Shown: piece by piece, positions 37,253 through 41,055 of the stretch
Layout: each line of letters begins with the position of its first letter
Position numbering within the stretch: the stretch's first letter is position 1
Assembly: GCF_003014475.1 (NCBI RefSeq)
Contig: NZ_PYGJ01000003.1
Location: 248,001 to 312,000, forward strand
Source: Shimia abyssi
GTDB taxonomy: Bacteria; Pseudomonadota; Alphaproteobacteria; Rhodobacterales; Rhodobacteraceae
Direction: 5' to 3'
DNA: 64,000 nucleotides
Program-made: the position numbers and the translations under genes
Notes under the pieces: model-generated
Database searches by the model: none
What the model saw: the letters and a program-made list of their open reading frames with translations, nothing else
Told to the model about the DNA's origin: nothing

Positions 37253-37702
37253 ATGAAAAACCTCAAGAAGAGACGGCGGATACAAGTGATTGTGGTCGCG
37301 TTTGTGGCTTTGGCGGTTTCGACGGCGCTTATCGGGTATGCGATGCGCGACGGGATAAACTTTTTCCGATCGCCTAGTCAGGTGGCCGAAACACCCCCGG
37401 ATGCGAGCGAAGTGTTCCGTATGGGTGGTTTGGTTGAAGAGGGCACATTGGTGCGCGGTCAGGGCGAGACGGTGACGTTTTCGGTAACGGATGGCGGTGC
37501 TTCGATTCCCGTGGCTTATAGGGGTGTGTTGCCTGATTTGTTTGAAGAAAATCAGGGCATGGTTGGCACGGGGCGTTACATCAACGGCGTATTCGAAGCT
37601 TCTGAAATCCTTGCGAAACACGACGAAACATACATGCCGAAAGAGGTGGTGGACGCGCTCAAGGAGCAAGGCGTTTACGTGGAGCCTGATACGGAAAGTT
37701 AA
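37253..37702 (+). CDS. ccmE: Cytochrome c maturation haem chaperone CcmE
   Basis: CcmE receives haem covalently on one histidine and passes it to apocytochrome c through CcmF/H. The 149-residue protein has a basic N-terminus, one membrane anchor (QVIVVAFVALAVSTALIGYA, about 11-30) and a beta-barrel periplasmic domain. The haem ligand H123 lies in LAKHDETYMP. An intrinsic terminator follows, which separates it from the downstream lysis pair and from ccmF. Confidence 0.96.
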   Translation: MKNLKKRRRIQVIVVAFVALAVSTALIGYAMRDGINFFRSPSQVAETPPDASEVFRMGGLVEEGTLVRGQGETVTFSVTDGGASIPVAYRGVLPDLFEENQGMVGTGRYINGVFEASEILAKHDETYMPKEVVDALKEQGVYVEPDTES

Positions 37703-37725
37703 ACTGTTTTTTCTCGTACTTTTGG

Positions 37726-37760
37726 AAAGGCCCGACCGGGAAAACGGTACGGGCCTTTTT
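37726..37760 (+). terminator. Rho-independent terminator after ccmE
   Basis: AAAGGCCCG-ACCG-GGAAAA-CGGT-A-CGGGCCTTTTT forms a long stem with a T-run on the plus strand. It should end argC-ccmE transcription, so the muramidase/holin pair needs a promoter of its own. Confidence 0.85.
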
Positions 37761-37849
37761 GATGTGTCGCGTCTTGCGTACGGTGGTCTTGGGCGGGATT
37801 AACCTCTTTGCGGCAAGGTGATTGGCGTTGCAAATCGCGAGGAAACGCC

Positions 37850-38461
37850 ATGCAGGATGTCAGGCAGATCGCCAAGGAAATCGTTGCTCGTGAAGGGGGT
37901 TTTGTAAATGACCCCGACGATCCGGGCGGCGCCACAAAATACGGTGTCACGATTGGCACCGCGCGCCAGCTGGGGCTGGACAAGGACCGCGATGGAGATG
38001 TTGACATCAATGATGTTCGCGCGCTGAGCCGCAGCGACGCTGAAGAGGTTTTCCTCAAGCATTACTTTGTGAAACCCGGTGTGAACCGGATGCCATATGC
38101 GCTGCAGGCCTCGGTTTTCGATATGTATGTCAACGCCGGTTCAAACGCAGTGAAGATCCTTCAGCGTTTGTTGGGGCAGATGGGGCACAAAGTGACCGTA
38201 GACGGCGCGATTGGGCCACAGACGATTGCCGCGGCTGAGGCGGCGGCTGCGGCGGCGCCGGATCATCTGGCCGATGCTTATGGGATCGCGCGGCGGAATT
38301 ATTACCTGTCAATCGCAGATAAGCGGCCCAAAAGCCGCAAGTATGCGCGTAGTCGTTCCGGGGGCAAGGGTGGCTGGATTCGCCGAGCGGAGGAGTTCAT
38401 CTCGCCGCGCTACCACCTGAGCGATGAAGAGTTTCAGAAGAGGGTTTCGTCATGGGCGTGA
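37850..38461 (+). CDS. Holin-associated N-acetylmuramidase (GH108 type)
   Basis: The 203-residue protein carries the GH108 catalytic start (REGGFVNDPDDPGGATKYGVT) with the predicted catalytic Glu15, and a C-terminal PG_binding_3 region (VTVDGAIGPQTIAAAEAAA). A DxDxDGxxD loop at residues 44-52 resembles a calcium-binding dockerin/EF-hand loop. There is no signal peptide, as expected for a lysozyme released by a holin. The holin gene overlaps its end by 10 bases. The ATG at 37850 has GAGGAAA upstream. The pair lies between ccmE and ccmF and behind a terminator. A gene transfer agent lysis role is plausible. Confidence 0.85.
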   Translation: MQDVRQIAKEIVAREGGFVNDPDDPGGATKYGVTIGTARQLGLDKDRDGDVDINDVRALSRSDAEEVFLKHYFVKPGVNRMPYALQASVFDMYVNAGSNAVKILQRLLGQMGHKVTVDGAIGPQTIAAAEAAAAAAPDHLADAYGIARRNYYLSIADKRPKSRKYARSRSGGKGGWIRRAEEFISPRYHLSDEEFQKRVSSWA

Positions 38462-39009
38462 TCGAGAAGCTTATCTCGCTGGTGTTTGGTGGTGGCCGCA
38501 ATGCGGTCAAGGAAACGGCCGAGGTGTTTCGCGAAAACGCCGAAGCCGGCGCGCAGCGGGCAATGGACGTGCAGGTTGCAGCTATGAAGGGGTTTTCGGC
38601 CGAGTTTCGACAGGCCGGGCGTGGAAGGTTTGACCGGTTCATGGATGGTATGAACCGGCTCCCACGTCCGGCCATGGCGTTGGGCTGTTTGGGATTGTTC
38701 GTTTCGGCCATGGCGAACCCGGTTTGGTTCGCAGAACGCATGGCTGGCATTGCACTGGTGCCGGAGCCGCTTTGGTGGTTGCTTGGCGTGGTCGTGAGCT
38801 TTTATTTTGGCGCGCGTCATCAGGCCAAAGGGCAAGAGTTTCAGCGCGCCATTGCCACCAGCATTGCAAGCGTGCCTCAAGTTGTTGAAAACATTCAGGA
38901 TGTGCGCGCTTTGAAGTCCGAAGAGGGCAATGCGGAAACCGCAAACCCCGCAGATGCGTTACATGATAACCCGGCATTGCGGGACTGGCAGAGGGCGCGG
39001 GCGGGGTGA
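38452..39009 (+). CDS. Phage-type 3TM holin
   Basis: The 185-residue protein opens with an amphipathic, glycine-rich start (GVIEKLISLVFGGGRNAVKETAEVF) and a charged helix, and then has two clear membrane helices (PAMALGCLGLFVSAMANPVWFAERM and PLWWLLGVVVSFYFGARHQ, about 62-86 and 102-120). The C-terminus is acidic and hydrophilic. This matches the 3TM_holin family, whose members make the pores that let endolysins cross the inner membrane. It overlaps the muramidase gene by 10 bases, so the two are translated together. Confidence 0.85.
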   Translation: MGVIEKLISLVFGGGRNAVKETAEVFRENAEAGAQRAMDVQVAAMKGFSAEFRQAGRGRFDRFMDGMNRLPRPAMALGCLGLFVSAMANPVWFAERMAGIALVPEPLWWLLGVVVSFYFGARHQAKGQEFQRAIATSIASVPQVVENIQDVRALKSEEGNAETANPADALHDNPALRDWQRARAG

Positions 39010-39081
39010 CCGCGACAATGTGATCACCCGGAATTGTCGAAACCGATTGGCCGCGCCGTGTGCGCGGCCTATATTCGAGGC

Positions 39082-41055
39082 ATGATAGTAGAGCTCGGCC
39101 ATTTCGCCCTAATCCTCGCCGCCATCACCGCCATGGTGCAGGCTGTTATCCCTCTTATCGGTGCGCATAAACGCTGGCCCGGCTGGATGGCCGTGGCGGA
39201 ACCTGCGGCGGTGATCCAGTTTTTGCTCACAGCACTTTCTTTTGGCGCGCTAACCTATGCGTTTGTTCTGTCGGATTTCTCGGTTCAGTTGGTGACAGCC
39301 AACTCGCACACGCTCAAGCCGATGCTTTACAAAATTAGCGGCGTTTGGGGGAACCACGAGGGATCGATGCTGTTATGGTTGCTGATCCTGACATTGTTTG
39401 GTGCCTGTCTGGCGTGGTTCGGGGGCAACTTGCCACCCAGCTTGCGCGCGCGCGCACTGGCGGTTCAGTCGGCTGTGGGGGTGGCGTTTTTTGGGTTTAT
39501 CCTGCTGACATCTAACCCTTTTATCCGTATGAAAGATGCGCCCTTTGATGGGCGCGGGCTAAATCCGTTGTTGCAGGATCCCGGCTTGGCGTTCCATCCG
39601 CCATTTTTGTATCTGGGGTATGTTGGACTTTCGATGGCGTTTTCATTTGCCATTGCCGCCTTGATCGAAGGCCGGGTCGATGCGGCTTGGGCGCGTTGGG
39701 TGCGGCCTTGGACCTTGGCGGCGTGGGTGTTTCTGACCATTGGTATCGCGTTGGGATCGTGGTGGGCTTATTACGAGCTGGGCTGGGGCGGGTTCTGGTT
39801 CTGGGATCCGGTTGAAAACGCGTCCTTTATGCCATGGCTTTTGGCGGCGGCGTTGTTGCATTCCGCGATTGTGGTTGAAAAACGCGAGTCGTTGAAAAGT
39901 TGGACCATCCTGCTGGCCATTCTGGCCTTTGGATTCTCACTGATCGGGACATTTATTGTGCGTTCTGGCGTGATCACCTCGGTGCATGCTTTTGCCAATG
40001 ATCCGGAACGCGGCGTTTATATTCTCGCGATTTTGGCGCTGTTTACCGGAGGTGGGCTGACGCTTTTTGCCGCGCGCGCATCGACGATGGAGGCCAAGGG
40101 TGTGTTTGGCATGGTCAGTCGCGAAAGCGGGCTGGTGCTGAACAATATCCTGTTGGCAGTAAGTTGTTTTGTTGTGTTTGTGGGTACTATCTGGCCGCTC
40201 GTGTCCGAGATATTCTTTGTCCGTAAGCTGAGCGTGGGACCGCCCTTTTTCAACATGGCATTTACGCCGTTCATGATCGTGCTGGGCATCGCCATGCCGA
40301 TTGGTGGCATGTTGCCGTGGAAACGGGCCAAGCTGGGCAAGGTCATTCGACCATTGCTGCCAGCGTTGGCATTGGCTGTGTTGCTGGGTGGATTGGCGTG
40401 GACGTTGCAGACCGGGCGCAGCCTGCTTGGACCTGTCGGCTTGTTTCTGGGCACGTGGATGGTGTTTGGCTCGGTAACGGACGTGTATACGCGCACCGGC
40501 AAAGGCGCGATTGGCGCAAGGCTTGGTCGGCTTGGCCGATTGCCGCGCGCGGATTGGGGTAAGGCCGTGGCCCATGCGGGCATGGGAGTGACCATGATTG
40601 GGGTGTCTGGCCTGATGGCTTGGGAAGAAGAAGACATCCGCGTGGCCTATATTGATCAGCCTTACATGGTTGGCGCTTATGAGCTGACCTTACAGAATGT
40701 GCGCGAGGCGCCGGGTCCGAATTACCTGTCGACCAAGGGCACCGTTCTGGTACGCAAGGATGGTCAAGACGTTGCCGTTTTGGAACCTGAAAAGAGAGTC
40801 TACCCGGTATCTGCAATGCCCACGACAGAGGCGGCGATTGATTATCGTCTGATGCGTGATGTGTATGTTGTGGTGGGTGATCCGCAGGACGATGGCGGAT
40901 ATACGGTGCGCACCTATATTAAGCCGCTGACGAACTGGATCTGGATCGGTAGCGCCTTAATGGCGCTGGGTGGGATCTTCAGCCTGTCGGATCGACGCTA
41001 TCGTGTGGCGGCAGGGGCTCGGAAATCCCCGACTGGGGGAGTGCCTGCAGAATGA
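39082..41055 (+). CDS. ccmF: Haem lyase CcmF
   Basis: CcmF attaches haem from CcmE to apocytochrome c thiols together with CcmH. The 657-residue membrane protein has about 14 hydrophobic helices. It carries the WWD-type domain WGGFWFWDPVENASFMPWLLA near residue 235 and conserved histidines (GNHEGSMLLWLLIL and HPPFLYLGYVG). The ATG at 39082 gives the normal N-terminus (IVELGHFALILAAI), though its Shine-Dalgarno spacing (GAGG, one base away) is short. The stop overlaps the ccmH start (ATGA). Confidence 0.96.
   Translation: MIVELGHFALILAAITAMVQAVIPLIGAHKRWPGWMAVAEPAAVIQFLLTALSFGALTYAFVLSDFSVQLVTANSHTLKPMLYKISGVWGNHEGSMLLWLLILTLFGACLAWFGGNLPPSLRARALAVQSAVGVAFFGFILLTSNPFIRMKDAPFDGRGLNPLLQDPGLAFHPPFLYLGYVGLSMAFSFAIAALIEGRVDAAWARWVRPWTLAAWVFLTIGIALGSWWAYYELGWGGFWFWDPVENASFMPWLLAAALLHSAIVVEKRESLKSWTILLAILAFGFSLIGTFIVRSGVITSVHAFANDPERGVYILAILALFTGGGLTLFAARASTMEAKGVFGMVSRESGLVLNNILLAVSCFVVFVGTIWPLVSEIFFVRKLSVGPPFFNMAFTPFMIVLGIAMPIGGMLPWKRAKLGKVIRPLLPALALAVLLGGLAWTLQTGRSLLGPVGLFLGTWMVFGSVTDVYTRTGKGAIGARLGRLGRLPRADWGKAVAHAGMGVTMIGVSGLMAWEEEDIRVAYIDQPYMVGAYELTLQNVREAPGPNYLSTKGTVLVRKDGQDVAVLEPEKRVYPVSAMPTTEAAIDYRLMRDVYVVVGDPQDDGGYTVRTYIKPLTNWIWIGSALMALGGIFSLSDRRYRVAAGARKSPTGGVPAE

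Follow-up and report, generated by a model that had tools for sequence, protein, structure and literature searches.

The endolysin and holin genes located inside the ccm cluster of Shimia abyssi (Rhodobacteraceae) very probably constitute its gene transfer agent (GTA) lysis cassette and are orthologs of rcc00555 and rcc00556 of Rhodobacter capsulatus; we place the probability of this reading at about 0.92. In the window, that is, the whole stretch of 64,000 nucleotides that was analyzed, the plus-strand gene order was argC, ccmE, endolysin, holin, ccmF, and ccmH. The endolysin gene (positions 37850 to 38461, plus strand, ATG start, 203 aa) encodes a GH108 N-acetylmuramidase that scored 354.7 bits against the NCBIfam equivalog NF040573 ("holin-associated N-acetylmuramidase"; cut-off, 240) and carried the Pfam families GH108 (PF05838) and PG_binding_3 (PF09374). 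The holin (38452 to 39009, plus strand, 185 aa) scored 104.5 bits against PF11351 (GTA_holin_3TM, "Holin of 3TMs, for gene-transfer release"; cut-off, 24.8). Since both proteins were far over these curated cut-offs, chance or misannotation was ruled out. A motif near the endolysin N terminus, which we take to be the site of the catalytic glutamate of GH108, was fitted by 190 of the 200 endolysins compared, including the window copy.

The first-pass annotation had described a GH108-type muramidase without a signal peptide and a 3TM holin, overlapping by 10 bases between ccmE and ccmF with no phage structural, integrase, or terminase genes nearby, and this description held. The two reading frames share positions 38452 to 38461 and are flanked by ccmE (37253 to 37702, plus strand; PF03100), a neighbor outside the lysis module, and by ccmF (39082 to 41055, plus strand; PF16327 and PF01578). 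Going by simple hydropathy only, the endolysin had no strongly hydrophobic stretch (maximum 19-residue mean, 0.83), in agreement with a muramidase that lacks a signal peptide. The holin belongs to the 3TM family, but in this copy two stretches stood out clearly as hydrophobic (19-residue windows with starts at residues 69 to 77 and 96 to 103), so that "3TM" stands here as a family name. The nearest neighbors of the pair were argC, ccmE, ccmF, ccmH, and an enoyl-CoA hydratase gene, with no phage structural or replication genes adjoining. Directly before ccmF there was a promoter-like site (39047 to 39075; TTGGCC, 17 bases, TATATT; 9 of 12 positions matching, a consensus match only), from which ccmF could be expressed without the lysis genes. 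A second CcmF-family gene, perhaps a nitrite-reductase-type paralog, was present in the same genome about 63 kb downstream of the first (C3:350754-351731).

The orthology was examined with R. capsulatus DSM 1710 and SP108, which were located among 66 named stretches by a scan with the rcc00555 EMSA primer published in PMC6854486. In both, the order was MurI, ArgC, CcmE, endolysin, and holin, and the endolysins of these stretches were 61 to 62% identical to that of the window. Whole-genome searches of these two genomes with the window endolysin returned one match per genome, at 62 to 63% identity, and in each case this sole match came directly after argC-ccmE and was followed by the holin; in the reverse direction there was likewise a single GH108 match in the S. 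abyssi genome. Because the only endolysin match follows argC-ccmE and precedes a holin, the R. capsulatus locus was taken to be rcc00555/rcc00556. The EMSA primers given in PMC6854486 also pointed there: the forward primer matched exactly inside argC in both R. capsulatus stretches; the reverse primer had no exact match, and its complement fitted the TTAACC site of the DSM 1710 stretch with one mismatch by eye. The single match each way, together with the shared position, makes the window pair, judged from the sequences compared, the positional ortholog of rcc00555/rcc00556. When rcc00555 was disrupted in R. capsulatus, gene transfer fell and particles were left trapped, as PMC3423380 reports from Hynes 2012, although the same source points out that direct evidence of lytic activity was missing from the work of Hynes et al. 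GafA has been described as binding the promoter of the R. capsulatus lysis cassette and as needing CtrA to raise endolysin transcripts (PMC6363796).

The first-pass suggestion that the pair is the equivalent of this R. capsulatus module was therefore upheld by the protein families, the orthology, the conserved position, and a GTA cluster elsewhere in the genome. Only one GH108 match and one PF11351 match were found in the genome, which rules out a prophage of the same genome as closer kin. One GTA cluster was found, as a separate locus on the same contig, 69,021 bp upstream of the pair (start of the GTA_TIM match to start of the endolysin match). The only capsid, large terminase, and GTA_TIM matches obtained in the genome with the queries used fell at C3:205689-217728, about 30 to 42 kb before the window start. 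Ten reading frames were scanned there, and 8 of them matched GTA families (large terminase, portal, prohead protease, capsid, tail tube, DUF2460, baseplate hub, and GTA_TIM). The GTA_TIM gene, gp15 (L033:16512-18656 onwards), was interrupted after codon 714 by a single in-frame TAA, and the cluster may therefore be nonfunctional, although an assembly error could also explain the TAA; the same-genus relatives with a GTA_TIM match (G041, G071, G093, and G109) had no stop within the match. Upstream of the cluster lay a perfect sigma-70 promoter (TTGACA, 17 bases, TATAAT; L033:6341-6435, equivalent to C3:205341-205435), with a strong terminator-like hairpin and T run within about 30 bases of it and before the first GTA gene. 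An antitermination arrangement at the start of the GTA cluster, by analogy with Caulobacter GafZ, is conceivable.

The distribution of the pair was determined in 121 genomes that came from an order-level draw, all belonged to one family, were at least 90% complete, and included that of S. abyssi. The endolysin family was present in 118 of them (117 of 121 over the NCBIfam cut-off), the holin exceeded its Pfam cut-off in 116, GTA_TIM was found in 116, and CcmF was found in all 121; endolysin and GTA_TIM occurred together in 113. At the 118 endolysin loci, ccmE was found upstream within the fetched stretch in 105 (27 of 30 plus 78 of 88), and ccmF was found downstream, within 6 kb and on the same strand, in 91. 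These counts indicated that the location of the pair in the ccm cluster is old, ordinary, and common in the family. The pair and GTA_TIM shared a contig in 63 of 118 cases and were within 150 kb of each other in 19 of those 63. PMC9765227 names 14 gene families in which codon bias tracks that of the GTA genes, ccmE among them.

Exceptions were found on both sides. Five of the 121 genomes (G001, of the same genus as the window organism, G005, G010, G091, and G095) had endolysin and holin but no GTA_TIM; the capsid was present only in G091 and missing in the other four, and the large terminase was present in G001, G010, and G091, carried three stops in G005, and was not found in G095. Since these five genomes keep the pair without GTA_TIM, a working GTA is not a strict condition for its presence. 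Three of the 121 genomes (G013, G081, and G110) had a GTA_TIM match and no endolysin match, with matches in G110 partial or weak throughout. An endolysin was found without a holin match in G085, and in G042 the endolysin match was shortened, PF11351 gave no match, and tblastn matched the holin only weakly.

The region upstream of the endolysin gene contained a recurrent promoter-like element. In the window, TTAACC, a putative CtrA half-site read from sequence only, was located at 37799 to 37804 (plus strand), and a CGNNCG box (CGTACG; 37777 to 37782, plus strand), a candidate activator site, lay exactly 16 bases upstream of it; in own-genome coordinates the site is C3:285777-285803. Among 54 upstream regions (30 from the genome set and 24 from the 66 named stretches), TTAA was present 40 to 72 bases before the start codon in 53, versus 4.6% of shuffles. 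When these were aligned on TTAA, the fixed letters of CG-N2-CG 16 bases upstream were found in 49, 52, 52, and 51 of 53 rows. The full pattern, CGNNCG-N16-TTAA, recurred in 57 of 88 held-out loci, whereas each other spacing from 4 to 29 was found in 0 to 5. With one locus counted per genome, the box was present in 83 of 118, TTAA without the box in 27, and no TTAA in range in 8; the genomes are kin to one another, and counts of the promoter element are not independent events. At all 58 phage-context copies the pattern was absent (0 of 58).

The loci without a box were informative about the half-site. In 10 of these 27 loci, a second TTAA-like half (at least three of four letters) was found at exactly 7 bases, with only 0 to 3 at each of the other spacings from 3 to 13; the 7-base half was present in 11 of the 83 boxed loci (Fisher P value = 0.011). 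PMC9437464 gives 7 bases as the CtrA dyad spacing. This distribution of second halves supports two readings: that TTAACC is a CtrA half-site, and that the box can replace the second half. According to PMC9638019, CtrA half-sites occur at all three late RcGTA loci, including rcc00555/6, and putative GafA sites at two of the three; the box may overlap these putative sites. The CGNNCG box may be a GafA site; PMC11150451 states that the R. capsulatus GafA site has not been mapped at nucleotide resolution.

Two other views of the box were considered. The view that it is mere ccmE coding sequence was rejected: 97 boxes were clear of the boundary of the ccmE frame, 46 of them within the frame and 51 past its stop at the same spacing from TTAA, and the element was also present without an upstream ccmE in L125, L132, L133, L138, and L141. 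A role as a genome-wide marker of the GTA regulon was not supported. The S. abyssi genome held 11 matches versus 39 for a reversed control pattern, and by eye the lysis site was the only one clearly upstream of a fitting gene; the exact pattern missed the lysis site itself in both R. capsulatus genomes. DUF2793 genes, presumably of the GTA fiber family, were found in 12 of 15 genomes, that of S. abyssi not among them. Upstream of 11 of these 12 genes, a search loosened to spacings of 14 to 18 found one element, at spacing 14 (L219), and the R. capsulatus DUF2793 upstream region (L216) held a near-match by eye, ending in TTTACC.

Two hairpins were found between ccmE and the endolysin gene. Downstream of ccmE, at 37727 to 37760 on the plus strand, comes an intrinsic-terminator-like, GC-rich hairpin together with a T run (-25.3 kcal/mol for 37723 to 37762); the first-pass annotation had called this a strong terminator, and the hairpin and T run are there, but the terminator scan did not list it. 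A candidate leader hairpin (GGCGTT / AACGCC; 37824 to 37849, plus strand) ends at the start codon; its loop contains the likely ribosome-binding site. In the window this second hairpin was weak (z = -1.0) and one of two competing folds. Across 144 leader loci, among which L207 and L208 are from prophages, the sequence from -45 to +6 of the endolysin start was structured relative to dinucleotide shuffles, with a mean z of -2.11 and 60% of loci below -1.5. The control gene starts gave mean z values of +0.25 for holin (n = 118), -0.20 for ccmE (n = 133), -0.17 for ccmF (n = 39), -0.06 for argC (n = 29), and -0.46 for murI (n = 20). The best ribosome-binding hexamer had a mean pairing probability of 0.71 before the endolysin in 118 genomes, versus 0.49 to 0.56 in three controls. 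At 134 anchored loci, the 5' arm of the hairpin ended a median of 28 bases past the first T of TTAA, and its 3' arm lay near the start codon. Stem sequences varied widely among loci while pairing was retained.

The hairpin is not special to GTA, because ribosome-binding-site pairing in the named set was 0.79 for the endolysin (n = 24) and 0.75 for the holin (n = 18), and because leaders in phage context were also structured (mean z, -1.23; 45% below -1.5; n = 58). A consensus fold of the aligned leaders failed, the stems being too divergent (8 sequences gave 3 pairs, 1 of them changed on both sides), and the hairpin therefore rests on single-sequence energies and not on formal covariation. The idea that the hairpin weakens as the intergenic gap lengthens was also dropped, the correlation being weak (0.29; n = 127). 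A conserved promoter and an RNA hairpin may together keep the pair silent until it is needed.

From these elements a sequence of events can be proposed. Late in GTA production, CtrA and GafA would switch on the promoter just upstream of the endolysin, a dependence carried over from R. capsulatus; the muramidase would accumulate in the cytoplasm until the holin permeabilized the inner membrane, whereupon the muramidase would cut peptidoglycan, and the cell would burst and free the GTA particles. This strain presumably makes GTA, and the hairpin would prevent endolysin translation from ccm read-through. We also put forward, tentatively and as possible rather than probable, a broader arrangement across the Rhodobacteraceae in which a composite operator and an insulating leader hairpin act as a double lock. 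Here the CGNNCG box, the candidate GafA site, would sit about two helical turns from the CtrA half-site and could substitute for a second half, so that firing of the operator would be limited to late GTA producers; a hairpin that evolves fast and covers the endolysin ribosome-binding site would silence ccm read-through, because only transcripts from the late promoter would lack the 5' arm, as in T4 gene e. The operator would have been gained on domestication, since it was absent from the phage-borne relatives examined. The leader hairpin might instead be a mere attenuator or terminator passed by a GafA-modified RNA polymerase (compare Caulobacter GafZ) and not a translational insulator. This we regard as rather unlikely: GafZ is an antiterminator and a similar activity has been suggested for GafA (PMC11150451), but TTTT was present within the 14 bases that precede the start codon in only 3 of 118 leaders of the genome set and 3 of 24 of the named set.

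A rival reading makes the pair what is left in the ccm cluster of the lysis genes of a prophage, Mu-like or other, with no present role in GTA; homologous pairs in prophage-like stretches speak for it. Two family members had a second endolysin/holin copy in prophage stretches (L207 and L208) beside frames that were Mu-like by eye; identity to the window pair was 68% for the endolysin and 55% and 42% for the holin. The 57 closest viral-contig loci (L226 to L282; from the best 80 of 104) had 55 to 73% endolysin identity (the L280 match spanning 119 residues only), and no ccm, argC, or other window neighbor was found at them by tblastn. The window holin was matched by tblastn in 50 of the 58 phage-context loci assessed. 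Annotated phage records were mostly distant: 508 had endolysin matches, at 31 to 37% identity among the 40 matches listed, with one further record beyond those 40 in the 60 to 80% band, and the holin had no match there at an E value of 1e-5. In an endolysin tree of 200 rows (142 genome and 58 phage context), the two groups were mixed, with 11 label changes, at least 2 of them forced by starred branches; a single clean origin was therefore not resolved, and a domesticated prophage remnant is possible as the distant origin of the pair. As an account of its present state, a remnant with no GTA role is very improbable. Endolysin and holin exceeded their cut-offs in nearly all of the genomes, the position has stayed the same down to R. 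capsulatus, whose copies function in GTA release (PMC3423380), and the box was present in 83 of 118 genome copies versus none of the phage-context copies. Moreover, endolysin dN/dS was 0.05 to 0.16 in the 11 of 14 pairs for which it could be computed, synonymous sites being mostly near saturation.

Those dN/dS values also bear on whether the module has been domesticated by the host and is kept for a purpose independent of GTA as well, such as programmed lysis or DNA or vesicle release. The five genomes with endolysin and holin but without GTA_TIM are what favors this, along with retention of the promoter box in four of them (G001, G005, G010, and G095). In the five pairs with a GTA-less member, dN/dS was 0.07 to 0.16, versus 0.05 to 0.11 in the six others, and the closest such pair, G005-G056 (dS, 0.72), gave 0.069; this constraint on the endolysin in GTA-less genomes hints at GTA-independent use. 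However, the losses of GTA may be recent, pairwise dN/dS cannot date constraint to one branch, and 113 of 121 genomes have endolysin and GTA_TIM together, so that we consider an additional purpose of this kind unlikely.

With the pair read as the GTA lysis cassette, an odd pair in the ccm cluster is settled as a standard GTA release module, and the arrangement suggests how lethal genes can reside in a cluster of housekeeping genes. Genomes in which the pair has outlasted GTA genes offer natural tests of independent use for host-controlled lysis. In the literature covered, outside of which most subscription papers fell, neither the ccm synteny nor the box at its fixed spacing nor the leader hairpin was found described.

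Among known systems, the closest is rcc00555/rcc00556 of RcGTA, which shares with the window the two families and their order, argC and ccmE upstream, and an upstream TTAACC. Unlike the window, the R. capsulatus loci had no ccmF match downstream within the fetched stretch, and DSM 1710 had TGAACG at the position of the box and not CGNNCG; the window in turn differs in its terminator-like hairpin after ccmE. Dshi_1756/1757 of Dinoroseobacter shibae, an endolysin and holin named in GTA release in a paper on the quorum-sensing regulon (PMC6473078), are similar by description. The prophage and viral pairs (L207, L208, and L226 to L282) share the endolysin family and, in many cases, a structured leader; they differ from the window in the promoter element and in their neighbors. 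The lysozyme gene e of T4 resembles the window in the way it would work, with no sequence kinship: a hairpin covers the ribosome-binding site of a lysis gene, and a late promoter lies near its 5' arm, so that long transcripts hide the site and late transcripts lack the arm (PMC3014915). The geometry of the endolysin leaders recalls that of gene e by analogy, the window copy itself being weak, as reported above. LypABC of Caulobacter crescentus likewise acts in GTA release in an alphaproteobacterium, but that organism is described in PMC13236601 as having no holin or endolysin homologs, unlike the window. The pair is of an already known kind, the GTA lysis cassette, here at its ancestral place.
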